Source: Membranipora membranacea
Lineage: Eukaryota > Bryozoa > Gymnolaemata > Cheilostomatida > Membraniporidae
Direction of reading: 5' to 3'
Assembly: GCA_914767715.1 (NCBI GenBank)
Contig: OU612075.1
Span: 13,080,001-13,144,000 of the forward strand
Length of the DNA: 64,000 nt
Both the position numbers and the translations under genes were made by a program. Of the stretch, positions 2,158 to 60,757 are shown in pieces (the first letter of the stretch is position 1; every line of letters begins with the position of its first letter). The notes beneath the pieces were generated by a model. The model was given only the letters and a program-made list of their open reading frames with translations. It was not told where the DNA came from and made no database searches.

Positions 2158-5100
2158 TTATGAGTTCTTCTTCTGAACAGACATCATAACAGTCTTCATC
2201 TCACAATATTCTTTCAAAGCATCCTCTCCTCTAAAAAGGTCAAATTAGATAAATCAATGCATCTCTGAACAAAATGAGAGGTAACGCAAGAACCAGGAAT
2301 ATCGCCCAAGTCCCCTCACTACCACTATGTTTTATGGAACGTATCATCACACTTTGTATTCATAGTAATCTACCATCGGTGACAATGAGAAGGTGCATAT
2401 TGTCTGTTTGTGCACCTCAGTTCATTAGTCTGTATGACAAGTTATAATTCAGGTACCTTGATTTATAACGTTCAACCATCTAGGTTATTCCCGAGTGAGA
2501 CAATGAGCACGTTATTTCATCAAGAGCCTTATACACAATAGAAAAGTGACAACAATGTTAACAGCGATTAATCCCAGTAAAGTTTGACTTACAGTTCCTT
2601 TCCGAATCCAGACCCTTTAAAGCCTCCAAAAGGTGTCTGCACACTCATACTGTCCGCACAATTCACCCTGAAATACAAAAAATGAATACATATCAGTTAG
2701 TTATCACTCCGAACTAGGCTTAGTAAATTCAGTTCACCAACATATAATTCAGGCGCCCTGATAAATTTTAAAGTCTAGCTTGTATCAAGTATCAAGGTTT
2801 GCTCTGGGCATTAGTGGAATTTTGTTTACAATGAAACCTGAATAGTTCTTTCTTAGACGCCCTATTGAAACTCTGGATTAACAAAATCCAGAGCTTTCTA
2901 TGTTTTAAATTCTAAATAAAGCATGTAGGTCTCCCGGTGCAAGTGTTTTCCTAGTTGAACTATGAGCATTTTCCAACCAAAAGTGGTGTACTATACGCTC
3001 ACTTACCATGTGATGCCTCCTTTGAGATTATGAGCCATGTATGTGGCTGTAGCGATATCTTTACTGAACACTCCAGCAGCGAGGCCGTACTCAGTAGCGT
3101 TACATCTATCCAATACATCCTCTGTATCTGTGAACTTCAGTATACTCTGAACTGGTCCAAATATCTGATAAAAGTAAGTGCAGACAAGGCTGAGACAAAT
3201 TAGTGGGGACATCAGGTGCCAATTTTAAGGATGAATTATTAAGAAAACATACTATAGTGTTAGTTTAAATTACCCATCAAACTTACAATGTGTACATTAC
3301 AATGCTTTTGGCCACAATATCTGCACTGCGATACACAGAAAAGGCGGGTGCATCCTTGTATGTACACAAATTTTGTGTGAAAAAAGATTGTTGCCGCATA
3401 GGGATTTTATCAGCAACTCACCACTTGAATCACATGCAACTCATTTAACACAGCGTTAGCAAATTAGGGCACATGGCTGTTTGCTATGAACTACAATTTT
3501 TTCACCGAGGAATTCATTCGACTCAACAAGTATAAAGTATTGGTTCCCAGAAATGTTCTACCTATGCTGCAATGATACAATATTTATGGCGCTTTAACAC
3601 TTACCTCCTCTCTCGCTATCCTCATATCATCTGTAACATTGGAGAAGACTGTGGGTTTGACAAAGTAACCTTTACCAGGTAACCTCTCTCCTCCACACTC
3701 GAGCTTAGCTCCCTCTATCTTAGCGCTCTCTACAAACTCTAATACTTTGTTCATTTGGGCTTCACTTATCTATAAAGTAAATAAAAGAAATAGCAGTCAA
3801 AGCGAGTCATAGTGAATTACATTTAACATAGATATCTGGATTCTCCACCCTCAGAAAATGGTACATTCTTGGGTTTTGGTGACATGATGTGAACTGGCTA
3901 TGCTTCATTAAATTGAACTAGACATGATTCCATGAAGTTTTATTACATTCTACAGCAGATAATAGGCAAAAGGATAAACTTTCATAAATTGGTCATGAAA
4001 TAGGTCTTATTTTCTACTTGGGGATAATAAGATATTTACCTCACTTCGCTAAATATCCACTTGCCACACTGATCAAGTGACTCATGTGTCTCCTTGATAG
4101 AAAGAGTATGAATAACTTGAGGTAGCCTAATATAAGTGTATTGTGTAACAGACAGAGTATAATTTAGGATGGCTACACATAAGGTGGTGGACAATGTAAG
4201 CGATGTATGCAAACATACCATAGAACCATTGTCACTGTCTTCCTTCCATGGATCTCCTGTTATTCTGTTCTCAGCACATGCCTTAGCTTTACTAACAAAC
4301 TCATCATAAACATCAGCGTGTACGAAATTCCTCGAGCCGGCGCAACAGTTCTGTCCACAGTTGGCCATTATAGCTCCATGGCAGTACAACGCTGCCGCAT
4401 CCACTGATAATACGCCAAAAATGTTTTAAAACATGTCGGCTGGTGAGCCATCTCATAATACATATTACTATGTCCACGAGCAAATCGTATGCTTCAGTAC
4501 ATTAAATTTCAGTTCATGTCTAGTAGATAACAAATGAAACGTAGTTTCCATGGAGAGCAGTGGACATGAACAATATGAATAGTTTGTTCTACTCAACTAA
4601 AAACATTGAAAGGAAAACTGAGAGAAGACAACATAAAGATGTAAGGACTACTCACAGTCAGCGTCAGGGAAGACCACTATGGGACTTTTACCTCCCAGCT
4701 CCATAGTTAGCTTCTTAAGATTACCAGCTGCCATCGTCATTATCCTCTGTCCTGTCTACAATTTATTCACATCAGACGAAAATTAAATTAAAACCGACAG
4801 TATGAAATACCAAGTTGTATAATTTCGAGTTATCCCCTCTTTGACATTAAACAAGCAACTCCAAGTTTTACAGAAATTGTTTGACAAATAGTTTGTAAAG
4901 TAAGATCAATGTGAGGGAATTCATTGGTAAAATTCAAAGTGAAGAGAATTTCTGCAAATATATAAGAAAGCAGCAGCATGCTGACAGATTACATTTGCTT
5001 CCTTCACTTCTATAAGCCAATTATTTCAGTCCTAATACTGAATGTAAAGACCACTACTTTATTATGGAAACCAAAACTTCACAGTAGATATGGAGAGTTT

Positions 5101-8100
5101 TGCTACCATAACATCTTCAAATTCTTAAATTAGATAATTGCCCACCTGAGTTGAGCCAGTAAATGATATCTTCCTGACGTCATTATGAGAAGCTAGTGCT
5201 GCTCCAGCAGTAGGTCCGTAACCAGGTAGTATGTTCAATACACCCGCAGGTAAACCTGCCTATAAAATATAAGAGCGATATCTAACAGATATCATAAATT
5301 GGGACTTAAGAGGAACTTTGTAGGAATACGGAATCCTTATTGCATGGGAATGAATGTTCATATTGACATTCAACTGATAATACCATATGCCAAACATAAA
5401 GACACTAGTTGAAAGACAGAAAAAAACTTTAATATGATTACAGCAACTGTCATCCGCTGAGTTCTTTTGCTTGGCAAATTTTATCAAGGGATATCAGCAC
5501 AACCAACAACGCAACCAACCAATCTGCCACTAAACACAGCCACAAAATAAATCATTTACACACAAAACAATGCAGTGATTAAATTAATGAAGATAACCAA
5601 AATCAAACCTCTCCAAAGCTCAACCTGCCGTTTTCCATCCATTCTGTTTCTCAACTATTAACACATAGATCAGTGTCAAACTCAGCATTCATTAAATTAT
5701 AACCCAACTAGACCACCTAAAGTTGGTTTACATTTGCTTTTATAGTTCATATTACAAAGAAAACTGCGAAAATATCACGTAAATAGTGTTGTACCTCTGC
5801 GAATAGAGCTGCTGTATGCAGAGCAGTGAGTGGTGTCAGCTCAGATGGTTTAACTAGGCATGTATTTCCACTCGCTAGAGCTGGTCCTACTTTCCATGAG
5901 AAAAGTGATATCGGGTAATTCCACTGCAGAGGAAAGGAATCCATATGACAAGTGGCTATCACTCACTATACATCAAACATTATTAACACTGTGCAGATGT
6001 CAACCAAGCAAATCTGAGATGAAAAAATCTAAGTTGGTATGATACTACATTCAAATAATTTTGCAATATGATAGTGACATGTTTATGCTACACATTCTGA
6101 CCAGATATCATATTATAAAAAAGCTGGTATTACATTTTGAAGGCTGCTATATAGTAACCATAGTATCACATAGTTTCCAAGTATGTATGAGTAAACTCAC
6201 TGGTATAATTTGACCGCAAACTCCAATAGGCTCTGGTTTAGTGTACGCAAAAAACTGTCCATCTACAAGAAGAGATAACTCAAATGAAAATCGGTTCATC
6301 AAAAACATGTAACATTCAGTTTTGATCACAATATCTAGCTTTTATAAGATAATATGAAAACAGGCAACAATGACAAGCGTTTTCAGTATAATATTGAGCA
6401 TGGTTACATCATGCATGTATATCACTTATGTCAACCACTGAGAGGTGCTTCGATGTATTTAGCTGATACATTGAATTTGCACATCATAATAGTATAATTT
6501 TTGATAATAGTACTTGTACTAAATTGACACATTGGCATATTGCAGGAGCATCCAGACATTAAGTGGTGATGTCTGTGGGATTGTCATTAAATGATTCTCA
6601 TTTTATCAGGAAAACAAATTTGTAACTTTTCATTGAATCTTGATTTGTCATAATAGACATCATAGCTAGTTAGGCGTTGAACGACTGATTGAACGACTGA
6701 TTGAACGACTGATTGAACGACTGATTGAACGACTGTTTGAACGACTGATTGAACGACTGATTGAACGACTGATTGAACGGGTGATTTGAGAAAATCTTCA
6801 ATATTACCTGGTGCGATAGTTTTACCGCCGATCTTATCAGCCAGACCACCGTAGTATTTATACACATCAATAGCATGCTCTACATCTGCATAGGAATCAT
6901 GATATGGTTTACCTCCGTCCAAAGTTTCTAGACTCTGTATAATCATATATTTCAAATAACAGGTATTGTGCGGACAGGTGAAACATGTGAAGAGCAAAAC
7001 AGCGTTATCTACTTTATCAGGATAATAGTCATAAGATATTAGATGTAATCTATATTCCAATCTAACCTAGCAACAAAATAAGACAGTAGATATCACAATT
7101 CTCTTATTCAATTCACATAAAGTTAATCTTTCATGACCTCTTCACCTCTGTGCTGATTTGCGTCATGGCATGACGATAGAGATATATAGCCTTGTCATGC
7201 AGCCACCAATAAGCCGTAGCCGCGTGACAAGGCTAAGGGATATAGACTTATATGTATTATCAGCTTACAGCTAAATAAGAGATATCCCTCTGCATGAGCT
7301 CGGCAGCTTTAACCATCAGTTTACCTCTAGACGAGGCGTCCATACTTCTCCATTTAGAGTTACGTTTGAAGGCATCAGTGGCTGCTTTAACAGCGCTGTC
7401 CACATCGGCCTGTAAAACAGCTAGTCATAATGTATCAATAGTAACTATCTGAATGATTATATAACATGAGATGTTTCTTTTCACAAGTATCATATATATA
7501 TATATATAGGCTCAATCACATAACAGAGATTTTTTATTTTGTTCCGATGAAATCAATGGGTCAAATCATGTGTGTCTACGACTGGGATTTGATGGTAAAC
7601 TAAAACTGACACAGTCCCTGCTCAAGCAAATTGTCAAGCCAATTTGATCTAGAATCTAGCCTACGCATTGCCTTATGCAATCAATAATTATACAAATGAA
7701 AATTTCATACTATAACCTAAACTGGTAGGTGGGGGAGGGAGGGAGGGAGTATGGCATGTGTCTGCCTTACCGAGTCAGCTTCAGCTACTTGACATATCTC
7801 CTCTTCTGTGGCCGGGTTGTAAGTCGGGAATGTTTTGCCGCTCTGAGCATCTTGGAACACATTGTTGATGAACAACTGCAAATAACGAAGATCAAAATAT
7901 TATATTGATATTCCAATTCAGCCTTCAATCTACCATCATAATCATCAGTATGCAAATATTTTAGCTAGTAATTAGGATGGATTTTCAAGAAATGGCAATA
8001 ACAAACTTTTAACTCTGGAGATTGTTCGAATCTGAAAATTATCGAGCCGAACAAATCCTTTGACCACCAGCCTAGGTCTTGACAAGACAGGCTACCACAG

Positions 8101-23525: not shown

Positions 23526-26500
23526 TTACATACCTGGTTCAGGCTGAAGGTCATCAGTGGGATGAATCATTTTTGATGTTTGCTTTGCTGGTGTCTCATT
23601 GTCTTCCGGTGTCAAGCGTTCTTCATCATCAACAATCACCTCTTTCATATCCAGATCAGTGAGGGATGACCTGTTTGAGTTTTCTGCTGGCTTGTAACCT
23701 GGTGTAACACAATAACAGCTTTACAGATATGGGTAAGAAAGTGAAGAACGCCGAGTGCACAAAAGTTAATCTCAAACCAGCTATGGAGAGCTTTGATGAC
23801 AGTAAAGTCTACTTATGTTTTGATTACAACCTGTTTTCCACAGGCATTTGTAATTTACACATGTCCAGTGGTTGCCTCCACCACTGGAAATTCGCCAACT
23901 ATGAAAGGCCTGCGCCGTTTTCAATAAATATAAGGGGTAGGAATCAAGAAACTTCATAAGAATTCACCTCTTCCTTTTCTTCTCTGTAGCCAACAGTGTA
24001 CACATATGGCAATTATCGATGTAAACCCTGACGAGCCCATAGCAGTCAATATATACAGTGCAATGTTTTGACAGTCGGAACTCTGAGCTTCTCTAATACC
24101 CTCTGTTGTCGTATCGTTTGCACTTGTTGCTGGTGTAGTGGACGTTGTTGTTGTTGTTGTTGCTGGTGTTGTAGAACTTGTTGTTGTTGGCGGTGCTGGA
24201 TGACGAAGTTCACAGTAAGTAAGGACATATGCTAAAAGTAAACACCAACATCAGTTTAGTATAGATAATATATAGATATAATGTTATTATTATATTTGTT
24301 TCCCATCTCTGAAATAGGGGACAATGCTGTTGACATCATTGATATACAGAAGATGAAATTTGACAGTGCCTTGTGAATATTAATTGTATATGACTCAATT
24401 TTTGGCTGTACCAATTGAATTTTGTGTGGTTGTCAACTATAAAAAGCCCAGTGGTATTCAATAACACTGTACATTCAGCTGCCGATAATCATATAAAAAA
24501 AGATATTGTAAGAAAAAATAACTTACCCCAGCACCAATCTTTACACTCAAGACCTAAACGATGATTTGCCAGCTTTCCATCGCACAACTGCGGGCAGCTA
24601 GCCCATGCGTTGTCTAGCCCTCCTTGATAACAAACTCCTTTTTTTTGCCATTCTAACTCCAGACAGTCTTTGTCAGTCACATTGCTCTGTGAACCATCAC
24701 AAACAAAGGTAAGCCTAAAACAAAAGAACAGATATATTACACAATCAGTTGGAAGGTAGTTGCTGCCAGCAAAAGATACTGTCCAGGGAAACAGACTTCA
24801 CCTAAATTTGGCGACCGTCGGATAATATTAGTTGTGGTCTATTACAAAGTTCCATGTCAAAGAACTGGATATTTACAACATTGTAAGAATTGTAGGCTGA
24901 ATGTATAAAAAAATCAACTACAAATTATGTGATGGTTAATTTTCTTCAAACGCTGAAGCTAAGAGATCATGTCTTGCAGGAAACATCATTGATGTACATA
25001 TATCTCAGCTGCTAAAGGTAAATTTAAAGCTCAGACTCGAACTTACCCCTCTCCGTTAGCTCCTGAACAGAGTATTGTAACAGCTATCAAGGCAAAAACA
25101 ATAAATCTAAAACAAAAACAAATACAACCCATAACAATACAACCATCTTATGCTGTTCTAATACTCATGGGAACTCTTTACGAGGTGTTAGCCATGAGGT
25201 GAGCTAGAGAAACTTATGAACTAAACCTTAGATTTGAGGGGGGGGGCGGGGGAGGGAGCTTTTATAGCAACAGCACAGCGGATAAAAATGAAGAAGACAA
25301 AAGGTAATCTTGCAATCTCAGTTCAACACCACACAAACACGACCTCAAACTTACACTGGTACAAATCTCACTGATGTAAAAGTCAATCCAACATTTTGTT
25401 ATAAATTAACCCACGTCTGTAAATGTGCATTTATTTTGGGATTTGTACCAGTCATAGAATGACAGGATGGCGCAGAGAAAATTTTACTATAACTGTAGGA
25501 GGGATAGTTTTTAGACTTAGAGATTTAGAGAGGTGACTAACACATAATCACAGAGTAAGGATATCTTTTCTCTGTGACCTAATCTATGCTCTGAGTTCAA
25601 CCCATCCAACCAGAGCACAACATACTTTTGGTCCAGTCTTCATGCACATAACTTAACTACAGTATAATATGATCAGACAATCAAATTAATCTTCTGCTAA
25701 TTGGGGTAGTAAAGCAAGCTATTATAACTGTCTTCTGTCAAAAAGTGTCCCATTACAGTTCCATCCCCATCCCTGAATAATCAGTAAAGCTTTCCATATA
25801 TACACTAGACTTTTAGTTTAACTTGTTTAGAGATGACTTAATGTGAAGTTTGATCCAATTTGCATGCATCCAGGTTGTTCACAATCTACTGGTGAGCCGC
25901 CAGCAGCAGAAAGGAGCAACTCCAACTGCGGGCAACTCCAAATACGGGCAAATTGGATCATAATTGCTGTAATGTTAGCTAGCGCCATAGCCTTAACATA
26001 ATTAAAGGGCAACCAAGGTTTCAAACAACTTCTCATTGATGGCCATTGATTAATAGCAGATTGCACCTTCTGCATGGGGAAAAAGACAAAATCTAATTCG
26101 GATGATTATTCAGCCAGAATTCTTGTGAAACATTTCTTCCATCAGGTACTCAAACTCAGCTAAAAGAGAATACCACATAGCAGTTTCCTGTTCCTGTTAT
26201 TATTTAGCCTGTGCTCTATCATTATTTCAGCAAAGTCTTGGAACCTCCCCTAAACTGAAGTGTTACCCAGCTTAGAGTCAGCAACTACTTTGAGTTTTGC
26301 ATCGCGTAATGCACAAAGCTGATGCTGCCCAGCACATTATTTGCTACCCATTAATGCATTGCTGCGAAACTTTGGTTGCCCTTTAAAGGGCAACCAAGGT
26401 TTCAAATAACTTCTCATTGATGGCCATTGATTAATAGCAGATTGCACCTTCTGCATGGGGAGAAAGACAAAATATAATTCGGATGATTATTCAGCCAGAA

Positions 26501-28539: not shown

Positions 28540-30985
28540 GTCGCTAACTTCTGTTGAAGGTTTCAGCAACATGGCATAATCGTCAGTCCATAATCGTTCC
28601 AGTCGTCAACATGTGCCAGTCAGGAGTACCGCCGATGTCTTAACCTGCCAGAGGGGGGCCGACCAGGAGGGGACTCGATGGTGGGAGGGCATTCCACAGC
28701 TTCGCTGAACTGATGAAGAAGCTGTTTAGATGGGCCTTAGTCCGACAGTGAGGTGTCAAGTACTGCTGACTGTGTCTTCGGGTTTGTACAGTTGATGGGG
28801 GCTGGATTGGAATGTAGTCACAGATGTTGGTTGCGACTTCGCCAAAGTGCATGGCCCTGAACATCCCTATCCGTCGATTTACTCTCCTGGATTGGAGCTC
28901 TTCCCATCCCATGTCTTCCAGTAGCTTGGTGGTGCTGGTAACATGGTCTGTTCTTGGTATGTTTTTAGTGATCCGTGCTGCTCTTCTCTGGACGGACTCA
29001 AGCTGGGTGGACTGGGTTTTGGTGATAGCCGCATCCCAAACTGTACATGAGTACTCTAGGATCGGTCTAGCTAGTTGTTTGTAAGCCTTTTCTCGCAGAT
29101 AGGGTAGGCTTGGTGGAATTGTTCGCCTGATATACCCAAGTCTGCTAGAGGCTTTCCCAGTGATGAATGCTGTGTTCTCGTTCCAGCGTAAGTTTGATTG
29201 AAGTTTAACCCCTAGGTATTTCACGGATGAAACCTTGCACATCTCAGTGTTGTGGAGAGTGTAGGAGTTGTTTGAGGTGTTCTTCAGTTTTCGGGTGAAC
29301 CTCAGGTGCTCGCATTTGCTAGGGTTGAATTCCATGCTCCATGCTGCTTCCCAAAGTTCAAGTTTCCTGAGGTCTTCTTGGAGAATGTCATAGTTGTCAG
29401 AGGTGTTGTAGATAACTGTGTCATCTGCAAACAACCGGATTTCAGATTTGATGTCGTTCAGCATGTCATTGATGTAGATTAAGAATAGGATGGGGCCAAT
29501 CACAGACCCTTGGGGCACTCCTGAGGTGACAGGTTGCGCTGAAGATGGATAACCATCAACAACAACAACCTGGGAGCGTTGGGCCAGGAAGTCTAGTGTC
29601 CAGTTCGTGATCTGGCTGTTAGCACCAATGTTGACAAGCTTCTTTATGAGGTGAGAGTGGTCTACCTTGTCAAAAGCCTTACTGAAATCGAGAAAGCAAG
29701 CATCAACTTCCTTTCCGTCGTCGAGGAGTTGTGATATATCTGAGGTCAGCTCGATGAGTTGGCTTTCACAGCTCCTGCGACTCCGGAAGCCATGTTGACG
29801 GGAGGTGAGTTTGTTGTTGCTCTCTATGTACCTAGTTAGATTACTGGTAACGATGTGTTCTAGGATCTTGCTAGACACACATGTGAGGCTAATGGGTCGG
29901 TAGTTACAGGGCTGGTATCTGTCACCCTTCTTAAAAACTGGGCACACTCTAGCCATCTTCCAGTCCTCTGGGACACAGGCAGAGTCCAGGGAGATCTGGT
30001 ATATGTGTGTGAGAGCGGGGGCGATGACTTTAGCCATCATCTTCATGAGCCGAGGGGACAGGTCATCAGGTCCGGTAGCTTTGTGTGGGTTTAGTTTCAT
30101 TAGTTGAGATAGCACCCCTTTCTCATCAACGGTGATGGTTGGCATTTCACTGGCATGGTGACTTCTTGGGGTGGGCTGTGAAGTGTGTGGCTCAGAGAAC
30201 ACAGACTGAAAGTATGTGATGAGAGCTTCAGCTTTCTCCTTTGGTGAGGTGAGGAGACGAGATCCTACACGTAGTGTACCAATGCCAGCAGCTTCTGATC
30301 TTTTGTGCTTGACATATTTCCAAAATCTCTTGTTGGGGTCCCCATCACCGTCTGTGTCAGTGAGTATGTTTTCGACGTATTTGTTGTGCTCTTGTCTCAG
30401 TTCTCTTTGACATTCAGCTTTTAGTTGTCTGAATCGTAGTTCAACATCTGCTTTCCCATGTTTCTTACTCTTTTGATGGAGCCGATTCCTCTTTTGCATC
30501 TTCTTGTCAAGGGTAGAGCTGATCCATGGCTGAGAAGGGCGTGTGCTACTTCCCCTGGTGGGGATGAACTTCCTTGCTCCCTCTAATAGTGTACTTCTGA
30601 AGGTACACCATAGGGAGTTAACATCACTATAGCTTTGGGTTATCTTCTCCATCAGCGGTTGTAGGTGGTCTGCAAGTCCTTCCCAGTCTGCACGTTTGTA
30701 CAGCCAGATCGTTCTTGCGGCTTCTCTTCTGCGGTTAACCTTAAGTGATATTTCCGTGAAGGGGATGTGATGGTCGCCTATACCGGGTAGCACTTTGCTT
30801 CTGTTCACTCTGTCAGGGATGTTGGTCATTGTAAGGTCTAGCGTGTTCTCTAGTCTGGTTGGTTCTTTGATGTGTTGGTGTAAGCCGTAGTCTTTGATTA
30901 TTTCTCTGAACTCCTCGTGCAGTGTTGTGTAACTGCATACAGGTTTGAGTAGGTCACTTTCCCAGTCTATACCAGGAAAGTTAAA
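28540..30985 (-). mobile_element. 5'-truncated non-LTR retrotransposon (LINE)
   Basis: The element runs on the minus strand. Its 5' break is near 30985, in the middle of the endonuclease domain: the coding text begins abruptly at FNFPGIDWESD, which in intact elements follows GD. The 3' region after the stop ends in short repeats related to caagtaagtaa at about 28515-28530. Loss of the 5' end is usual for incomplete target-primed reverse transcription. No clear target duplication was found. Confidence 0.85.
28640..30984 (-). CDS. LINE ORF2: partial endonuclease plus reverse transcriptase
   Basis: The frame is open for about 780 codons. In order it shows the end of an apurinic-type endonuclease (FNFPGIDWE, then EPTRLENTLDLTMTN and GIGDHHIPF with the conserved DH). 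Reverse transcriptase blocks follow: FKKGDRYQPCNYRPISLT, then HGFRSRRSCESQL, DFSKAFDKVDH (motif A), SGVPQGSVIGPILFLIYIND (motif B) and LFADDTVIY (FADD catalytic motif C). Next comes the C-terminal LRPILEYSCTVWDA-like section (here ARPILEYSCTVWDA) and RRAARI. This is the Jockey/CR1-like superfamily pattern. The lack of stops or frameshifts over 2.3 kb points to a young insertion. The missing 5' end means it is not autonomous as it stands. It lies between ectodomain genes 2 and 3. Confidence 0.93.
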
Positions 30986-33229
30986 TTTTGAGCGACGTGA
31001 TAGAGATAACTTGCCCCCCCCCAGGTTATAAATATAATAAATTATGAGAAAAAGAAACTTACGTTTTCAGCTACTGTTACTGGTGTGTCTGTCAGCAACA
31101 AAGAGTCTGACCAGACCAGTGAGTTGGTCACTATGAGCAGGGAGAATGAAAATCTCTCGGCTGTGAGAATGTGACTGTCTGTGTGTCTGTAGAGTATGTT
31201 GGTGTCTCAGTGAGTGTGACAAAAGAGACACTACTTTGGCAGAACCGGATGATGGTTTCTCTTTAGAAAATCTAAGGTACTCCTCCCCACTGCCGATGAG
31301 AGTTTGTTTAGAATGTTGGATGCTATTGGAACGCAGCTTGAGCAAGGAGTTATTGGCTTGTGCAATGATGAACTAGACCAGTTCATTTCATAAGTATAAT
31401 TTATTTTATAATAATGAGTCATTCTCACTCAATAGAATAGAATATTCCTGTCATTGGAAAACCAAGACCGAGTACCCTTCTTCCGGTGATTTCTTAGGAC
31501 GAGGAATCTAACTACCCCCAACATCTGGAATGAATGTGAAAACCTTAGTCAATCCCAGGAACCAGCATTGAATTTGGGAAAACCCACTTTTGCTCATGCG
31601 CATTGCATGCAATCTAAAAGAAGTCTGATTGGCTGTGTGCTTATACATGCATGCGGATTACTTTTCTAGAGTTATGTTCTCATGAACAGTATGACAAAAG
31701 TTTACAGTAATTCCTTGCTGTAACCAGGGAGCATGGAAGGTGGAATTGTAGGGAATTCGTCTTAATTAAACTCCGTGCTGTAACCAGGGAGTTGCTCACA
31801 TGATATGGGCATGATATACTTTACATGGTGTACTGATACACCTGTTATGAACAGATGGGTGGCGGGTGCCATTCATCCCCATTCACCCTAGCTGACCAAG
31901 AAACAAATACCGACGAATGGTGGTTAATAAAGCCACTTTAAAGTAATTTTCATTTCAAATCGATATAGCTGTGGTTATCTCTCCAACAAAAGGAAATGAT
32001 TTTGATTACCAGTCCTGCACAACCCATGGTATGCCGAGGAACACGCAGGATAGTTTAATCAAAGAGTTAGAGACAACTTCTTGGCTCTACATAAAAGTGA
32101 TGTCTATTCTGATATTTGAAAATGGTAGACAACTAGCAAATTACTTGAGTTGTGTGATCAGGGAGTTTGGGATATAAACTCCCTGGTGTGATCAACAGTA
32201 TTTTTACATTTTACTTAGACTGGATCGACATGTTAACACCAGGTCCGCTACCCACCGAACACAGCTTTTCAAGACAGGCTCGACACCGCACATTTAAAGA
32301 TCGTAAGTCATTTCTACAAAATTCCATTGTATTTAGGTCATTGTCATTACAAATCTACACTTCTGTATTATGCCACAGCAAGCGATCCTTTATTGGGAAA
32401 GTCATAACTGTGTTCATGGGTGGAATCACCGCACGAAATATCTATGAAAATTTAACCAGGAAAAACTGATTGTTAAAAGAAAATTATAAGTCATCAAAAA
32501 AACTGAAAACAAACAATCCAAAACAGCCAAAACTAAAACAATATCATTGTAAAAGAGAGAAATACCAGAGAAAGACAAAACAATGATCGCATTTGACCTG
32601 ATAGGACCTCATATTCAAAGAATCCAGTATGAATACAGTATTCAATGAGGAATGCATAGTTTAGCTGTTGTGCATAGAGCGATGCAGCAGTAATGTTATT
32701 GAGAAATTAAAACACGCTGTGATGTTTTACACAGCCCTGTTTTTCAGAATATTCACCAACGTCAGAAAATTGTTTACTCTTTTTTGGAATTTATTTCATT
32801 TATTAATTTCACAAATGAGAATGTTGGAAGTTTTTTACCTATGTAGTCACCCAAATTAGTATGACCAGTCAAGTCAATGTGCCAATTAGCAGAGAATCAT
32901 CTGTTAGATATGCAAAGGGAATTAAGCATTGTTAATGTGTTGAGGAAAAGAGTGGGCGGTATGATGATATTGACGCCACGAATGCAGATGCCAGATGTGG
33001 CGAGGTGTAGAATGGATGCATGCAAGGACAAAAGAGATGTGATGTAAAAATAGCAACAAAGATGGATGAGAGATGATGATGATGAGAGATGATGAGGGAT
33101 AAAGTTGGCTAGTGTCAGTGATGAGGACCAAAAGAAATGAAGAAATGATTGATGTTTAGTTTGGGTGGTTCAATGGAAAATGGCTTTGTGGCTTGTGACC
33201 GCAAAAACAAACCTAGTATTTAACGTCTA
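30986..33229. other. Intergenic region left of ectodomain gene 3
   Basis: No confident gene is present. The minus strand at 31064-31130 ends in DTPVTVAEN before a good donor (gtaagt) and could be an isolated exon, but no partner was found. Palindromic motifs around cagggagtt occur at about 31728-31795 and 32158-32186. The rest is AT-rich. Confidence 0.3.
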
Positions 33230-43062: not shown

Positions 43063-46000
43063 TCACACATTTGCTTTGATCGTACCAGCGATATCCTGTC
43101 GGCAGATTGGGCACTGTGTCATAGCTGCAGCGCATGATGTACAGCAAACTGTGGAAGAAAACGGAACTTATATTTCACCTCAGGCCATAAAATGACAACA
43201 AGGGCTGACGAATCAACTGTACAAATGGTGAAGAGTGAAGACTATGAAAAAAAACATTTCTCTTCCTATTACAAAAGCTTTCGTGGCATATAAGTATCCA
43301 ATACTATAAACATTTATCTATGATAGTTCAATGCTGAGATGCCGAGACATGTCACAGGTCCCGCTCCAAAATCACTCACAGAAATGTTAACTGGATTTAG
43401 CTCACAAAGCCCCAAACTTTCAAAGTCATTATACATATGCACCTATTCATTTTTCATAATTCATTAAAATACAAGCTGCTTAACGTTATGATTTGATTAC
43501 TAAAAGAATATTCGCTTACCGAGGTGAGCACAAGGTAAGAAGATAATTCCAACTGCCGATGATATACAGATTTTACAAGTCAGCTGGTTCATCATCTGTT
43601 TACTCAGGTCTACTCTCTCACCATCACTTAAATCTGTTATCATAATATATAGAGAAAATTAATGTTATGGTGTACCAGAAACACTTGTGTAAAGGCGCAG
43701 CAAATAGAATTGAACATTATACTTGAGCAGAAACTCCTATACTTTTCATACATACATACCCTGCACACTTTTAGAAGCAGGAGGATCCTCAGATGGAGGT
43801 ACAGGTTCTGAGAGACCTGGTGGAGGGTCTGATGGAGGCAAAGCTTCAGTGCCTGGCTGTACCTATAGGTAATCAAATATTCAATCAATACATCCGCACA
43901 CCTCATGCCATATATAATGCTCAGCTTGCTCTATGTAAGCGATGACAAAGTTTGTAGTCAAAATAAGTAAAAGATCTGTTATGGTGTCTAATAATCCATT
44001 TTCAAAAGTTATTATTACATCCAAGCAACTCATAAATCATCTTGAAAAAAAAGGAAGAATCAAATTTCACACTACAACAACACCAGTTGATGGGTGGTCA
44101 TCTTATTCTCAGAGAAGACCAGCAGACCTGCATGACTACTGGATAAAAATCAAAAAGTATCTACCTGTGTCTCTCCATTGTTTTCAACCTCAGCCTCTGG
44201 ATCAGGTAAAGAAGATACCGGCATTTTTTGTATATCAGGAAGCAGCAGTTTTCGATTGTATTTCATATCCTTGTATTTTAACTCAAGAACATCAGAAACC
44301 AAGTCCTCTGTCTGTTTGTAATCTGGCTTCAGTTTCTATGTTTAGGAATAAATATGACTAGAAACAGACCTCACACATAATCCTAACCTTGAGTGAGTAA
44401 AGTAGGATAATTTGAAAGAGTTAATTTTCACTAAATGAGTTGGAGGGTCAAATCATGGAGTCCTTAGTCAAATATCTCTTCAGAAAGACCTGTCCTTTTT
44501 CTCAGATCAGACCTGTGAAAGTACAATATATTTTTGAAAACTATGTCAGATTTTATCATCTTCTATTATTGAAGCCCAAGTGTACACTGGTTTTACGATA
44601 GCGTTTCGAGGGACTATTTGATAAATCTCATTGGAAAAGTGCAGCAGTAATCCAAGTATCAGAAACTATGCAGTTACGAGAGGGCTAGAACTCCAACTAC
44701 CTTCAGCCGATTAATGACAGCTGTTTTCACATGTTCTCGGCTATAACCCATACCAATAACAGTTTGTACTACGGTAGCGTCCATACGTGGCCTGATCATC
44801 CTCGTAGTAACATTCTGGAAAACATGAGGGACCATACTTGTCATGAGCTGAACAATTTTGCACCACAAGGTGCTAATAGTTTTAAGAACTACTACAGAAG
44901 AACAAGAATAAACAAAAATAGATATGAGTGTAAAATGTACGCAGTACATACCATAACCTTTCTTTAACTTTAAAAGGTAGTGATAAAGCTGTCTTGACCT
45001 GATGGTTAGTTTCAAAATATGAGGCAACGACAGGGTTCATAAAGGTCAAGAGAGTAGTTTCATTTGATCTACACATTTTCTAACAGTTCTTTACAAAAAT
45101 CCTTTCCATCAAACCGAAGGTCAGATATGTCCAGTGCGATTTACCACTTTCCCCAACTTGTTATGGCAAGCATCAACACCATAATAGATGACCTGGTTAG
45201 CTGTTAAGCTGAGCTGAATTAAGTGAATACTTGCCCTTATCCTGTCTTCATCTCTATGGTTCTCAGCCCACAGCCCGTGTTCCTCAATAGCTGTACCTAT
45301 AAACTCTGACCCCTTCTCATTCAGTACAAACTGACAGGACCTAGAGCTACGTGCGTGCCTGATCCAGGCGTCCTCAGCTACAGACCAGTTACCACAGACT
45401 ATGCCACACCAGAAACATGTCACAGAGTCTCCTTTACCTGTAGTCAGATAGCAACTAACCTAAAAACTGAACTGAAACTGAAAACCTCAGCAGTAAATTT
45501 CTCAAAAATTTCTCATTACTGCATATCAATAACTTATATTTAATGGAGAATACTACCTTCAAAGAAGAAACCAGCTGAAGACAACTCCTCTGCTCCCTTT
45601 GGATGATCATATGAAACAGTTAGAAAGCTCTCCATTCTCCGATCCAAAACCGCCATAGGAGGATGTTTAGCATGTACTGTAGCTATACCAACATCCTCTA
45701 AATCACTCACAGAGATCGTTACAGCGGTGACAACCTTACTTTTCTCCCATCGAAAGTCCTCAGAGAGTATCGGCACATTGCCTTTAGGACCTAACATCAA
45801 AATATATATAAATATATATTTACACTTTTTATTTGGCAGACAATTTCACATGGTTTTGATTTTATCGAAGCGTTCTTGTTCGTGATTTTCATCAAAACTT
45901 ATACCATTGCTATGAATCATAATGTAATTATGAGGAAAATCAGACTTATTACAAGAGTTGCTTTGTTTTTGTAAGTAATACAAAAACAATACCAACAACT

Positions 46001-49000
46001 TACCAAGTTTGGTGCCTTGTACAAATGGACACGCAGGAAATTTAAGAGTGTGTACTTCTAGGGGTGTATGGTCTTTCTCCTTTGTAAACATTGGCATCGT
46101 ATCTTTGGCGACACCATTTATCTTGTTGTCACAGAATGGGCAGGCAAGGGTGAACATTTCTGCAAAACAGATGAAATCATTGAACTATAACATATATCTA
46201 TCGTTGAACAATTGTCATCAGGTTTTGATCTCCTAGCCAGTAGGCACCAATATCAGTAATCAAACAAGAATGGCTTGAAATTCATGTCTACTGACTTATA
46301 TATGGATGAAGGTTGGCTACAAATTACATTGAAGTTAAGTTACCTGGCGTATCCCTGATCAGATAGAAGCCAGCCCATGCTAGGTGTTTAGAGTGAACCC
46401 TTGACCAGTCATTTTTGATAAAACTCTCTAGTCTACAGAGCTCATGTCTCATCGGAACATCAGGCACTGCTAGGGACTTTGAGCTTAGCCGCTGCTGTTG
46501 AGGAGGAGGCACAGATAATGCAGTCGCAAACCCTTCAGTTCTGGAAATATGACAGTATTGAACATTAACAGTTTACAACCTAAACCGTCATTTTATAATA
46601 TGCTTCAACAACTAAATGATACAATGTCATATCGTGATTTACTGAAGATCCATTATTATTTCAATTCTCGAAGGATAGAAGTGAAGAGTAAACACACAGC
46701 TAGATGGTATTTAAACTCTCAGCAGCCGACTACATAAAATTGCTGATAAGATTGGTGTGAGCTACCAGCTATACTTTACATGGTAGTGTTCAACTACTCA
46801 GAACTTATGTCTATTACCTTTTCTCAAACTGTATATATCGCTCAGCGAAGTCACCACCAGCGGACACCCCCTGTTCGTTTTCAGCAGAATTTGGACGTGT
46901 TTCATTTAATGTCAAAGCTTGAGCAGCAGCTATTGATGGGTTTGAAAAGTAACCGGACTCAAGTGAGAGCTCACGACCTGGAGCTCCTTTAAAATCAATA
47001 CAGCCATCAAATATTATACAACAAACCTGTACACAATATTTTTTGCTGAAAATGGAGATTTCTAAGAAGAGACAGCTAAAGAAAATAGACAAATAAAATT
47101 GTTCTTGATAACAATTATGAGGCAAATATTGACAAATGCAAACATTCCCAGAAAGAGTTTTCAAAATTCAAATGAACTTTGGTTTGAAGCTGTTTAAAAA
47201 ATAATATATCCATTTTGCAGACTTGTAGGATGACACAATTTCAGAACTAACCTTGGGTGGAAGCAGTCTCTAGGTAGTGCCTAGGTCTACTACTAAGAGG
47301 AATATTGATCTCCTTGTAATACACGATGAGTTCACAAACTGTACCAGATATGGCTTGGTGGAGAGCAGATGCATCCATGTCGCTTTTGAAGTGACAAAGT
47401 TGAACTTCGCACCACAGGCAATAGACTTCATCAGTGCCTTTCCCGGAGTTGATGAATCCAGCTCTTGCCAGTGATGATGCTGTCATGTGATGGGAGTTGA
47501 AACCGGTCATGAATGTCATCAATCGTTCTGTTTCACTTCGATATTTGCATTTCAAGTCCTGTTCAGGCATGTCCAATGCAGTTACCATCTTATGAATGGG
47601 TACCTTGCTCACAGTGACATGTGAAAATAATCCTTGACCTCGGATTATCGATTGGACATCACGAGGGAATGCCGAATCAGGATCACTTTCATTCTTCTTA
47701 GGTCCGTCCACGACTGATATTTCTGCCACTTTGGTCTGGTGGAAAGGCAAGACATTTCCATTTGGCGTTTCACAAGTTGCTTTACTTGTGCTTATGAACT
47801 GCGTGATATTTTCAGCCTGATCGACATAGTCGTATCCTCTTGTGCAAGCATACGAGTCATTCGAAACACTTTCAGCATTTTCTCCTTCAACAATTGTCTG
47901 TTGCACTTGATCCTGGTACCTGTGTTCATCGCTTCCTTGCTCTTTTTCATTCATACTCTTTTGGTCTTGTGGTGAATTCTTATTAAGCGCTACTTGAAAG
48001 CTAGCTAGCCCCTCCGTAACTGTGCTTTTCCCTGATGACTCAAAGTCTTCTAAAGTGTCACTATATTCTTCTTTCTCATAGATACTGCACAGATATGCAG
48101 ATTTTTTCTCCATATTATGCGATGATAAAATTCCCTCACCCAAAGTTTTTCCTTGAGAACTGTGTCGACTCTCATGATTAGAATCTTCTGCAGAGCTATG
48201 CTTCAATTCACTAACTCCACTTGGGAATAGATCAAGCATTTTATAAAAACACCCTTGTAAGAGGATTTCCAACCCTCCAATCATATACTCACGGCTAGTC
48301 AGTACAGAAGTTGGAAGTGAGGTACGCAGGTTTTCTCGACCTTGGCTAGTACTATAGTTACTCTGAAATATGGCTTCTAGAAAGCTAAGGGCATCATATG
48401 ATTGAAAAAAGTCAAGGCCACCGGTTTTGAGGGCATATGATAAACCGGAACTTGTTTTGGCACAGAGATCCAAACCTGAATTACACACATAAGTGTCAGC
48501 ATTGATATAAAATCCTTGTAAATCTAATGGGCTAATTTCATCCGTATACAATGCATTACAGGGAGTTTTGAGCAAAGTCAATTGACATTGATAGAGCTGT
48601 CTCTGTACGGCAGTGAGAAGGGGGGATTGTAGGATTGATTTGCAGACTAATTCTGGTGTAAATCCAGTGATGACAGGCTTGGTGAGTTCTTCTTGTCCTT
48701 CAGTATACATCATTATTGAGGCTCCATGATGGCATGATTTAATCATGATCATCTGAAAAAAAAAGAATATCATTATAAGAAAAATTTATAAAAGAGTGAA
48801 GCACCAGATGTAGAGTCCGTTCAAGGCGTTAAATTTATTCTAAATACTATATGGCACAGCAAAAATTCATTTTGTAGTGAGTTGTCTCAAAAATCACTCT
48901 CTCTATATGCAAAAATCAGATCTAAGGCTGCAGGTAACAGTATACAGTAACAGTCTTGTATCCCAGCTTTTTCGACTTGTTTTGTAATGGGTGACGAAGC

Positions 49001-50228
49001 AACACATACTCAAACGATCATTATTTACACAGAAAAAAGACCAAAACTCTGATGATGTAGGTTGATAAAATATGTTGACATATGTTATAATGAAATTCTA
49101 ATTCAAAATTCAACTCCAATATGGATTCGGAGAAATCAGCCTTACTGAAATCCTAAAATTGCTACCTTAGGGAAGTAAATATTACCAAGAGTTAAATTTG
49201 TCTAGTTTAGGGGTGATTTGATGTCAGTGAGCACCAATTTTAGCTAGCTACAGTGGAGTTTATAAAAATTACTGACTGAGCTTCCGTGTGTGTTAGCTTG
49301 CCATAAATTCAAGCAAGCGCAAAAATCCTCCACAAACATCATAACTTTTTTGTTGTACTAATGACACAAAACTCTCAATCTGTATATTTTCCACTCCCCA
49401 AAGCTCACCTTTGGAGTATGAATTTTCAGCATGCCATCACTCAGGGTTCCTATGTCATCACTAGGAAAGTCAGACGACCTGCTTTCAATCCTCTCTCCCT
49501 GGCTGCCGTGGCTCATCATAATCAGAAAACAGCTGCAGCTATGCTCTGTTTTAAGAGCAATTTCCACTGAGCTGGCCAGCGTTGACCTTTGATTCCATGT
49601 CAGGCGCTTCAGCAGTTCAGATATAAGTTCTTTCGTTACCTCAGTCGTATCCAGATCTGCAGTTTGGTTTCTGGATACTACATTATTCAAGTAAATTGGT
49701 AAAAATGTTGATAAATCAGAAAATTGGAATCAATAAAATTACTTATAAATTTTCTTCTAGTCAAAAAAATCTTTCACAGCGTGCTCTTTCATACAATTAT
49801 GGCACGTCAATAAAAACATTTGTCCAGGATGATTTTGTCTGCAAATAAAATAGTATATATTTGCAATACACTCGTCATATCTCAGATTGAAAATGTGAAT
49901 GAAGTCTCTCTAAGAGCAGATGCTATCATACATTGCATCCATAGTCCATACCACATATCCAAGTTTGAGGATTAGAGAGGTGGTGTGTTGCACATTTCTC
50001 TTCAACATCCTGTGTTGTGACAGCATCACCAAAAAGCTCTAATCTTTCCATTCTCAGAACATTGCACAAGTAATCGCTGTGTTCGAAACAAGGGACAGCT
50101 GTTCTCTGAAGAAGAAAATGTTCAAAGTCAGTGTCAATAGCTGTTTTCAGCCTCATAACAAGCTCAACTTGGAACATTTTGCAAAGCTTGACACCACTAT
50201 CATCACTTACACTTCTTGCCAACACCAT
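43063..50228 (-). CDS. IAP-type E3 ligase with caspase-like domain, three BIRs, UBA-like segment and RING
   Basis: Fourteen exons: 49952-50228, 49409-49677, 47252-48752, 46818-46986, 46344-46540, 46004-46159, 45557-45790, 45145-45437, 44952-45079, 44701-44800, 44165-44335, 43760-43862, 43520-43633, 43063-43148. They give 1265 aa in continuous phase. Residues 1-92 are helical (possibly death-fold). A caspase-like part follows: FLIMMSHGSQGE (His149), then KSCHHG (Cys189) in place of QACRG; the spacing of 40 is near the 42 of caspase-3. A p10-like stretch follows. The first p20 strand seems absent, so activity is doubtful. BIR1 has CLWC-x16-H-x7-C (about 627-655). BIR2 spans exons 5-6, with CPFC and a longer loop. 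BIR3 is canonical (CFWC-x16-H-x6-C). The UBA-like segment is in exon 10, and the RING is CKIC..CAH..CPIC at the C-terminus. The acceptor of exon 10 is the weakest join. A role in ubiquitin-dependent control of death or immune signalling is inferred from the domains. Confidence 0.82.
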
Positions 50229-50412: not shown

Positions 50413-50516
50413 TGGTACATACAGCACAGTAGTACAACTGGTACATACAGCACAGTAGTACAACTGGTACATACAGCACAGTAGTACAACTGGTACAAAC
50501 AGCACAGTAGTACAAC
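50413..50516. repeat. 26-bp minisatellite
   Basis: Four nearly identical head-to-tail copies of tggtacatacagcacagtag plus tacaac. Confidence 0.92.
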
Positions 50517-50830
50517 TGCAGCCCAAACTCTTTGACTACAGCTAACAACCAGACTGCTGTTCTACATGCATACCTAGCTGTCAACCCTTGGGGCTTTTTT
50601 TAATTATAAACTGCTAGACTCACCCCTGCTAAGGCTTGAAAAGAATTTTATTGTGCCTAATCGAAATACCAAGTGATTGCGATAATTTGACTCGTATATT
50701 ATCGGTCACCCTAATCAAAAGACCCCACTGGCCTATCTCAAGACTCCAGTATCTTTTACTAAATTACTATCTATCCATAGCCCTAGTGCCCAACCTGCAG
50801 CTCTTGTGGCCGGATGGCTCATTTTAATCA

Positions 50831-59096: not shown

Positions 59097-59809
59097 GATG
59101 GTCTTCTCCAATACAACTTACTTCCTCAATGAGTTATTGTGTTGGACTATGTCAATTACCTTCATTACAGTTTATTGAGAAATCAGCAACATCTTATACC
59201 ATAAAAATAAATGGTCATGCAAAGACACCCTTCAATTATAGTCAGACCAATCATGTCGCTGAGATCAAGCAACTACAAGTGACATGACTATCCAGTTGAG
59301 ACAACATATTATTTAAGTATTCCCTAAACTCCAAAAGATCGCGAATCAGGATGATTTGGTGCTCAGCTCAAAAATTGTGTACATTAAATCCCGCTTGTAA
59401 AAAGGCAGTTTGTACATCCATAGGGATGAATTGAACATTTAGTTGGTGCTTGTCCTTATAAACTAAAAACTAATTTCATCAAAAGCATGAATGAACTAAA
59501 ACTGAATTTTTCATCAAGTCACACCTCACATACCCAGAAAGCTATGGAAGTATTATGACACCCTCCCTGATGACACAACCAGATTGTAATATACTATGTG
59601 ATTTGGAGTTATCTTGTATTGGTCAATGAGGAGGCAAGTCTAGACAATGACGTAACCCAAAAAACTTCAACAGAAAGTTGAACCAAATACTCCTTGGTTG
59701 GACAATGATCATCTGACCAGGGAGAATTCTCCCTGATCTGACAGAGTAACTTCATTATAGACGGGCATGTAATGTATATGAGGTATGGAAAGCATAGAAA
59801 TATAATTAC

Positions 59810-60757
59810 CCTGGATGTCATCTTCAGACATAAGGTAGTTTGGAAGCTCTTCACTTATCCAATTAATAGCAGTAAACAGCATCGCGTCTCCAAGATCCAG
59901 GTCATTGACAAAAGTGTCAAGTTTCTGTCTGAAGCTTGCCTGACTAGAGCGAGACTTGAACCCTGTGGCTCTTATAAAGACTAGAGGTGGACTAGACAGA
60001 GGATATGAGTGAGGAAGGTCACATTTCACCTCCACTGGATTCTAAATTATATAAATTAACATATTGAAAGTAACAAAACCACCTGGATTAACGATAATAA
60101 TTTCTCATGGACATGAACTGTAGCTATATGTACCCTACACAAACAAATTATTGGCTAGCCTAAGTTTGCTCAGCCTCATTTCTTTATATAATTTCCCACT
60201 TAAGCTGGTGAAATTTGACTCGACCATTAGTTAACCTGAAACAAACCTAATCAATATTTTTCTATCTGAACATGTTTGTTTGGATACATTGTGGGACAGA
60301 CTCAGATGAATAAATCAGTCTCCGTGTTTGACGTAGCAGTATGCTTGTTCAACATAATGAATTTCACAAACGAAGGAAATGCGCCCTATAATTTAGAAAT
60401 TATATAATTCATAGTGATAATTTAACAGCTTTACAATTCTATATCCCCCTCGCCCCATGGGCACTAATGTTAAAAAATATCATAGCAACATTATGATGTC
60501 CTTTGTGTCATTTACAAAAAGCATGTTCGCAGCATGTTATTAAAAGTATAGAAGTGAAGCCTTGTCATACCACTATGTATATATGTATGAACGGGTCAAG
60601 GATTTAAGGGGGTGTGTACATAGATATATTGGTAACACACTCACAGCATGAATGAGGAGTTTGAGTGTGAACCCTAGACGCAGGTCTTCATCTCTCAGCT
60701 GTGTGACCACATCCTCTATAGCAGATCCCGAGTTTCCACTACCCTCACCAAGTTCAC
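59810..60757 (-). CDS. RWD-domain protein (RWDD2-like), partial model
   Basis: Two exons are clear: about 60757-60645 (5' edge uncertain) and 60041-59810. The first encodes AIEDVVTQLRDEDLRLGFTL. The second gives VEVKCDLPHSYPLSSPPLVF, an IRATG strand, then helices with GDAMLFTAINWISEELPNYL. The YP-x-PP-type core (YPLSSPPLVF) and the final helix are the RWD fold as in RWDD2 and related E2-like scaffolds. Exon 2 ends in phase 1 at a good donor, so a 3' exon is expected. Reading through instead reaches a stop at 59709. The C-terminal DUF1115 part of RWDD2 was not found. The 5' edge abuts duplicated segment E, so the start may be disrupted. Confidence 0.65.

Follow-up and report, generated by a model that had tools for sequence, protein, structure and literature searches.

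A candidate fusion of a diverged caspase fragment to a BIR-BIR-BIR-UBA-RING ubiquitin ligase in the bryozoan Membranipora membranacea

The window, the whole 64,000 nt stretch of Membranipora membranacea DNA analysed here, corresponds to G000:C11:13080001-13144000 and includes an IAP-type gene in which a first-pass annotation, made from the sequence alone, had recognised a caspase-like part upstream of three BIRs, a UBA-like segment and a RING. The features of this gene are listed below, with a slash marking an exon boundary.

43063-50228, minus strand: IAP-type gene, 13 exons, 1195 aa, all phases compatible
49952-50228, minus strand: exon 1, aa 1-92, putative start codon, phase 1 donor, family not assigned
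49409-49677, minus strand: exon 2, aa 93-182, predicted caspase p20 core with SHG, ending HTPK/GTGAGC in phase 0
49508-49510, minus strand: codon of His149 (catalytic-type, SHG), inside exon 2
48753-49408, minus strand: phase-0 intron, (T)PK to Cys strand, positioned as in caspase genes of the same genome
47252-48752, minus strand: exon 3, aa 183-682, with Cys strand MIMIKSCHHG, expected p10 region (p10 not detected), linker and BIR1
48732-48734, minus strand: codon of Cys189 (catalytic-type, KSCHHG), inside exon 3
47328-47525, minus strand: BIR1, Pfam BIR 33.5 bits, position in agreement with the genome-wide BIR search
46818-46986, minus strand: exon 4, linker, 44 % identity to its counterpart in the paralogue L009 (alignment of 68 columns)
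46344-46540, minus strand: exon 5, containing the first half of BIR2
46004-46159, minus strand: exon 6, BIR2 zinc half, Pfam BIR 29.4 bits across exons 5-6
45557-45790, minus strand: exon 7, linker and first half of BIR3
45235-45437, minus strand: exon 8, BIR3 zinc half, GC donor, Pfam BIR 56.6 bits across exons 7-8
44701-44814, minus strand: exon 9, UBA-like, Pfam UBA 19.1 bits (cut-off 22.4), 38/38 residues identical in L009
44165-44335, minus strand: exon 10, 75 % identity to L009 over 44 aa
43760-43856, minus strand: exon 11, proline-rich linker (gene model)
43520-43633, minus strand: exon 12, first half of RING
43063-43148, minus strand: exon 13, RING second half and stop codon, Pfam zf-C3HC4_3 51.1 bits across exons 12-13

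The gene model is internally consistent, and its ends are exactly those given in the first-pass annotation. All 12 introns end in AG and all start with GT except for one GC donor on the 3' side of exon 8 (AGG/GCAAGT), where the frame of the paralogue L009 continues with a Val codon (GTN) that matches the expected GT donor. As had been claimed, KSCHHG and BIR1 lie in the single exon 47252-48752, the used frame of which is open over all 1501 bases (500 codons) while the other five frames contain 25-54 stops each; its first codon is a Met codon. The caspase exons contain no stop and no frame break in the 13-exon model, though the open frames of exons 1 and 2 carry little weight, because both exons are short and some of the unused frames there have just 1-2 stops. 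Exon 1 matched no Pfam family at E≤5, and its identification as a CARD or DED was rejected, there being no family match and only a low-confidence, all-helical single-sequence AlphaFold model (mean pLDDT 46). At 50413-50518, a 26-base unit is repeated in tandem about four times, and the putative start codon lies approximately 185 bases downstream of it. Elsewhere in the window, an 808-aa minus-strand frame at 28643-31066 contains a reverse transcriptase domain (Pfam RVT_1, 129.7 bits) and is probably part of a retroelement, and two aldehyde dehydrogenase frames and one RWD-domain frame were recognised by Pfam at 4039-7066 and 59712-60041, also on the minus strand.

The BIR and RING assignments are secure. 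All three BIRs score above the Pfam cut-off of 22.9 bits, where one BIR suffices for membership of the IAP family, and the C-terminal C3HC4 RING that marks the RING-bearing IAPs is likewise above its cut-off of 27 bits; hence, the claim of three BIRs and a RING in one gene holds. The segment between BIR3 and the RING is UBA-like but below the family cut-off. The RING, proposed to be of XIAP type, has its nearest relatives in the PDB in cIAP2 (E 5.3e-16) and cIAP1, with XIAP behind them; for BIR3, the best chains in the PDB sequence search were those of NAIP, followed by XIAP BIR3. A protein-database search with aa 550-1195 gave no match at E≤1e-10 among 7970 candidates, a strict cut-off that may hide weaker IAP matches.

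The same chassis is repeated approximately 41 kb beyond the gene and on the same strand, at L009 (G000:C11:13171000-13180999). The exon order from BIR1 to RING is shared, but L009 has ankyrin repeats (Pfam Ank_2, 59.9 bits) in its BIR1 exon, a single 737-aa frame followed by BIR2, BIR3, UBA and RING exons, where the window gene has the caspase piece. Identity between the two is complete in the UBA exon, 80-87 % in BIR3 (87 % in the zinc half), 91 % in the BIR2 zinc half, 76-81 % in the RING and linker and 35 % in the BIR1 stretch, and nothing significant was found upstream of aa 477. The chassis is under purifying selection, with a dN/dS of 0.132 and a dS of 0.87 over 443 pooled codons (aa 739-1195), calculated from eight blocks with overlaps of a few residues, most of exon 11 being excluded; two of the eight are saturated individually. 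This estimate covers the chassis, the caspase part having no paralogue. Genome-wide, there are 107 BIR matches and 145 C14 (caspase-type) matches, both counted exon by exon. BIR3 was found in all 13 of the loci L010-L022, UBA in 12 and RING in 11, though some of these stretches end early, and in L013-L018 the frame before BIR1 appears, by eye, to be short and basic.

The N-terminal part was far less readily identified. With aa 1-361, no Pfam family was found at E≤10, Peptidase_C14 included, and aa 1-361 or 1-420 had no fitting match among PDB sequences or 5.8 billion proteins; two PDB chains obtained with the caspase-part query at E 0.76 and 1.4 (AncD1D2 and PPPDE1) were taken as chance. A search of the genome itself (339,339,785 bases in 18 contigs) matched the caspase part only to the window gene, in three places. 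Because Pfam, PDB sequences and the protein database gave no fitting match, we built our own caspase profiles, leaving the query out. They drew on 34 sequences, comprising 23 stretches from the same genome, the seven database proteins P0001-P0007 (P0008 was omitted) and four PDB chains, and the three that span p20 were made from all 34 sequences, from ten local ones and from twelve of classic type; scores are given below in that order.

Residues 80-361 scored 22.4, 23.3 and 12.5 bits, and none of 1000 shuffles per profile did as well (best 6.1, 8.3 and 8.0 bits). For aa 1-361, the scores were 21.8, 22.7 and 12.0 bits with best shuffles of 10.1, 4.5 and 4.5 bits, and the full 1195-aa protein scored 19.2, 20.4 and 9.7 bits, while a control, aa 362-600, scored comparably to its own shuffles. 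The match covers aa 114-212 and thus crosses the exon 2-3 junction, and splicing exon 2 to exon 3 raised the score with the all-sequence profile to 21.5 bits from 13.6 bits for exon 2 alone. When ranked against 341 ORFs of at least 80 aa from the window and L001-L026, the window gene's exons included, spliced aa 1-400 came first (E 1.5e-6, 9.4e-7 and 1.9e-3) and the exon 2 frame second, the best other ORF reaching 6.5, 4.3 and 4.3 bits. The exon 2 frame also ranked first of 2017 ORFs of at least 45 aa with each profile (13.6, 9.7 and 11.1 bits), though with the classic profile an ORF at 23648-23812 of the window was close behind at 9.3 bits; this ORF, which also scored 10.0 bits with the classic p10 profile, was attributed to chance, its match being short and some 25 kb distant. 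In the limited-length stretches L001-L026, the three p20-spanning profiles gave no ORF more than 6.5 bits. The hhalign probabilities were only 78, 76 and 26 %.

Judged by these profile matches, aa 114-212 are a caspase-derived, diverged large-subunit (p20) core. The caspase-like part reported upstream of BIR1 is supported by profiles that contain sequences from the same genome but not by the Pfam, PDB-sequence or 5.8-billion-protein searches, and a profile without such sequences gave only 2.7 bits, with seven of 1000 local shuffles equal or better. Structure prediction, which had been proposed as a check, was carried out as single-sequence models of single exons and yielded no usable fold (mean pLDDT 34 for aa 183-368 and, as above, 46 for exon 1). 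The suggestion that the N-terminal strand of p20 has been lost does not clearly apply, as MAFFT places TWICVS on the first strand, though without a score that supports this part alone.

Further evidence came from an intron position. In four caspase genes of the same genome (L038, L049/L052, L050/L044 and L051/L048, the L050-L044 and L051-L048 links being made by order and motifs), the catalytic Cys occupies position seven of an exon that begins in phase 0, and HTPK/MIMIKSC in the window gene places its intron identically and in the same phase. The acceptor was seen in all four, and the donor, after GKPK, only in L038 and L049. The frame is uninterrupted at this spot in 16 other fetched loci (L030-L037, L039-L041, L045-L047, L053 and L054). 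The highest score of all, 24.3 bits, was obtained with a profile of the four exon-sharing genes, and a profile of L033, L034 and L037 gave 12.9 bits; no local shuffle out of 1000 was as good in either case. Since these values compare with 2.7 bits when the genome's own sequences are left out, the caspase case rests on close relatives. Unlike the window gene, the four caspases keep QAC and p10, and no genome-wide BIR match falls inside their fetched stretches. Pfam recognised the p10 exon of L044 (44.1 bits) but missed the large-subunit frame of L050.

The catalytic-type residues present a mixed picture. His149 of the SHG motif and Cys189 are 40 residues apart, the normal spacing that had been noted, as 15 caspase relatives with both residues in these columns have 39-63 and 12 of the 15 have 39-44. 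The QACRG motif is altered, again as noted, and the gene departs from QACxG; in KSCHHG, a Lys stands two residues before the Cys, where Gln is found in all 17 relatives that have Cys in that column, and C-HH-G is one residue longer than C-R-G. In caspases, the p10 subunit supplies the remainder of the S1 pocket as well as the dimer interface. With three p10 profiles, aa 197-375 did not separate from shuffles, of which 537/1000 (all) and 57/1000 (classic) were as good or better, with no reported score for the local profile. We discarded a by-eye p10 alignment that put LDLCAKTSSGLSYALKTGG on the SWR strand, as it had no profile support, and one ORF in L012 that scored 8.4 bits with p10 profiles is within the chance range. 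The Lys in place of Gln, the extra residue and the lack of a detectable p10 make it likely that the caspase fragment is protease-dead, as the pseudo-caspase label of the first-pass annotation implied, but because both His149 and Cys189 are kept, this falls short of proof.

Profile scores, the intron position in common with local caspase genes and the joint exon of the Cys strand and BIR1 together support the in-frame fusion of a caspase-derived stretch upstream of BIR-BIR-BIR-UBA-RING. That the resemblance to caspases arose by chance, the N-terminal region being an unrelated orphan domain, would fit the lack of a database match and the 2.7 bits obtained without own-genome sequences, but it is made highly improbable by the failure of any of 1000 shuffles to reach its score with any of the three profiles, by the top rank among 2017 ORFs and by an exon start and phase identical to those of the best-scoring caspase subfamily. 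We also consider it unlikely that the caspase exons are a decaying relic or an alternative set of first exons, and that the product is an ordinary BIR3-UBA-RING IAP starting in or after exon 3. The Met codon that opens exon 3, the undetectable p10, the apparently short, basic frames before BIR1 in L013-L018 and the limited weight of the open exons 1 and 2 would all suit such a history, as would a codon signal for aa 183-375 of about zero (0.016 bits per codon), though the codon-usage test is generally too weak in this genome. However, exon 3 is open for 500 codons against the many stops of its other frames, splice sites and phases are intact, the caspase exons have neither a stop nor a frame break, and His and Cys are both retained.

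An active protease of altered specificity, linked to a regulator of its own such that the BIRs restrain the caspase in cis until the linker is cleaved, is improbable. The His of SHG and the Cys at normal spacing and the long linker between the caspase part and BIR1 are compatible with it, but the Lys in place of the Gln found in all 17 relatives with Cys in that column, the residue added after the Cys and the failure to detect p10 argue against it.

We conclude, with a probability of about 0.6, that this is one gene encoding a BIR1-BIR2-BIR3-UBA-RING ubiquitin ligase together with a diverged, probably dead caspase large-subunit fragment derived from a local caspase subfamily. The N-terminal modules of BIR-UBA-RING genes differ in this genome, with ankyrin repeats in L009 and a caspase fragment in the neighbouring window gene, and the simplest account, and our best reading, is that the N-terminal module of an IAP ligase chassis was swapped, here for a caspase fragment of the local subfamily. 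We infer that the fragment could provide a bait, a substrate trap or a decoy surface, and it may act as scaffold, decoy or dimeriser, as suggested in the first-pass annotation. It would bind caspase partners, whether other caspases, their adaptors or caspase-targeting pathogen proteins; the BIRs would hold the bound complex, and the RING would then ubiquitinate the complex or the protein itself. Some plant immune receptors carry integrated decoys, and by analogy a caspase fragment joined in the germline to the class of inhibitor and ligase that restrains caspases could tentatively be viewed as an integrated decoy or substrate trap of the caspase pathway.

IAPs and caspases are opposing partners known as separate proteins. 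We know of no IAP with an N-terminal caspase piece, and no natural caspase-BIR fusion was found in the part of the literature covered (titles and abstract openings). The proposal that the architecture is new to named IAP families is thus consistent with our searches, within the part of the literature and databases that they covered. Three BIRs, a UBA-like segment and a C-terminal RING are shared with cIAP1/cIAP2 and XIAP, though the cIAPs differ in having a CARD between UBA and RING. NAIP (BIRC1), the source of the best PDB chains for BIR3, also couples three BIRs to another large module, but its BIRs are followed by NACHT and LRRs, and it lacks a RING. The long form of cFLIP is a protease-dead caspase homologue that acts by pairing with a caspase, but unlike the window gene it has no BIR, UBA or RING. 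In the API2-MALT1 and MALT1-API2 proteins of MALT lymphoma, parts of cIAP2 are joined to parts of MALT1; the MALT1 caspase-like domain sits in API2-MALT1, after the BIRs and without a RING. The fusions arise by chromosomal translocation in tumours, whereas the gene described here is germline, and MALT1-API2 ubiquitinates BCL10 and is itself a target of its ligase activity via the API2 RING (PMC2652110). MALT1-API2 is a precedent in which the RING of an IAP acts on the cargo of a foreign N-terminal part and on the fusion itself. In amphioxus, hybrid genes, TNFR-caspase among them, have yielded transcripts (PMC2575513). In the parts covered of surveys of clam (PMC7831173) and oyster (PMC8917759), a caspase domain inside an IAP is not mentioned. 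BIR and RING domains have been shuffled according to the clam survey.

If true, the natural joining of a caspase piece with a full IAP ligase in one gene would mean that the N-terminal modules of IAPs are swappable, and the fusion would open a way of asking whether integrated decoys occur in animal immune ligases. A genome this rich in BIR and C14 matches is also a setting for studying the diversification of caspase networks.

Some caspase-related loci of the same genome have features of their own. L032 (G000:C4:18270400-18272000) belongs to a caspase-like family with eight database proteins (P0001-P0008, 50-87 % identity), one of which is attributed to the bryozoan Watersipora subatra. L032 and P0001-P0007 retain the catalytic His but have Ser in place of the active-site Cys, and the family is apparently a conserved pseudo-caspase. 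In L038 and L049, the frames upstream of p20 look ankyrin-like by eye (DGRTPRDVA and KQTPFDLA), though Pfam shows the caspase domain only. L050 (G000:C11:3049000-3052199) has Roc (25.4 bits) and COR-A (25.7 bits) matches, both below cut-off, in one 609-aa frame; it is upstream of a Pfam-negative frame with a caspase-like SHG and of the p10 exon of L044, an order that suggests a possible Roc-COR-caspase gene.
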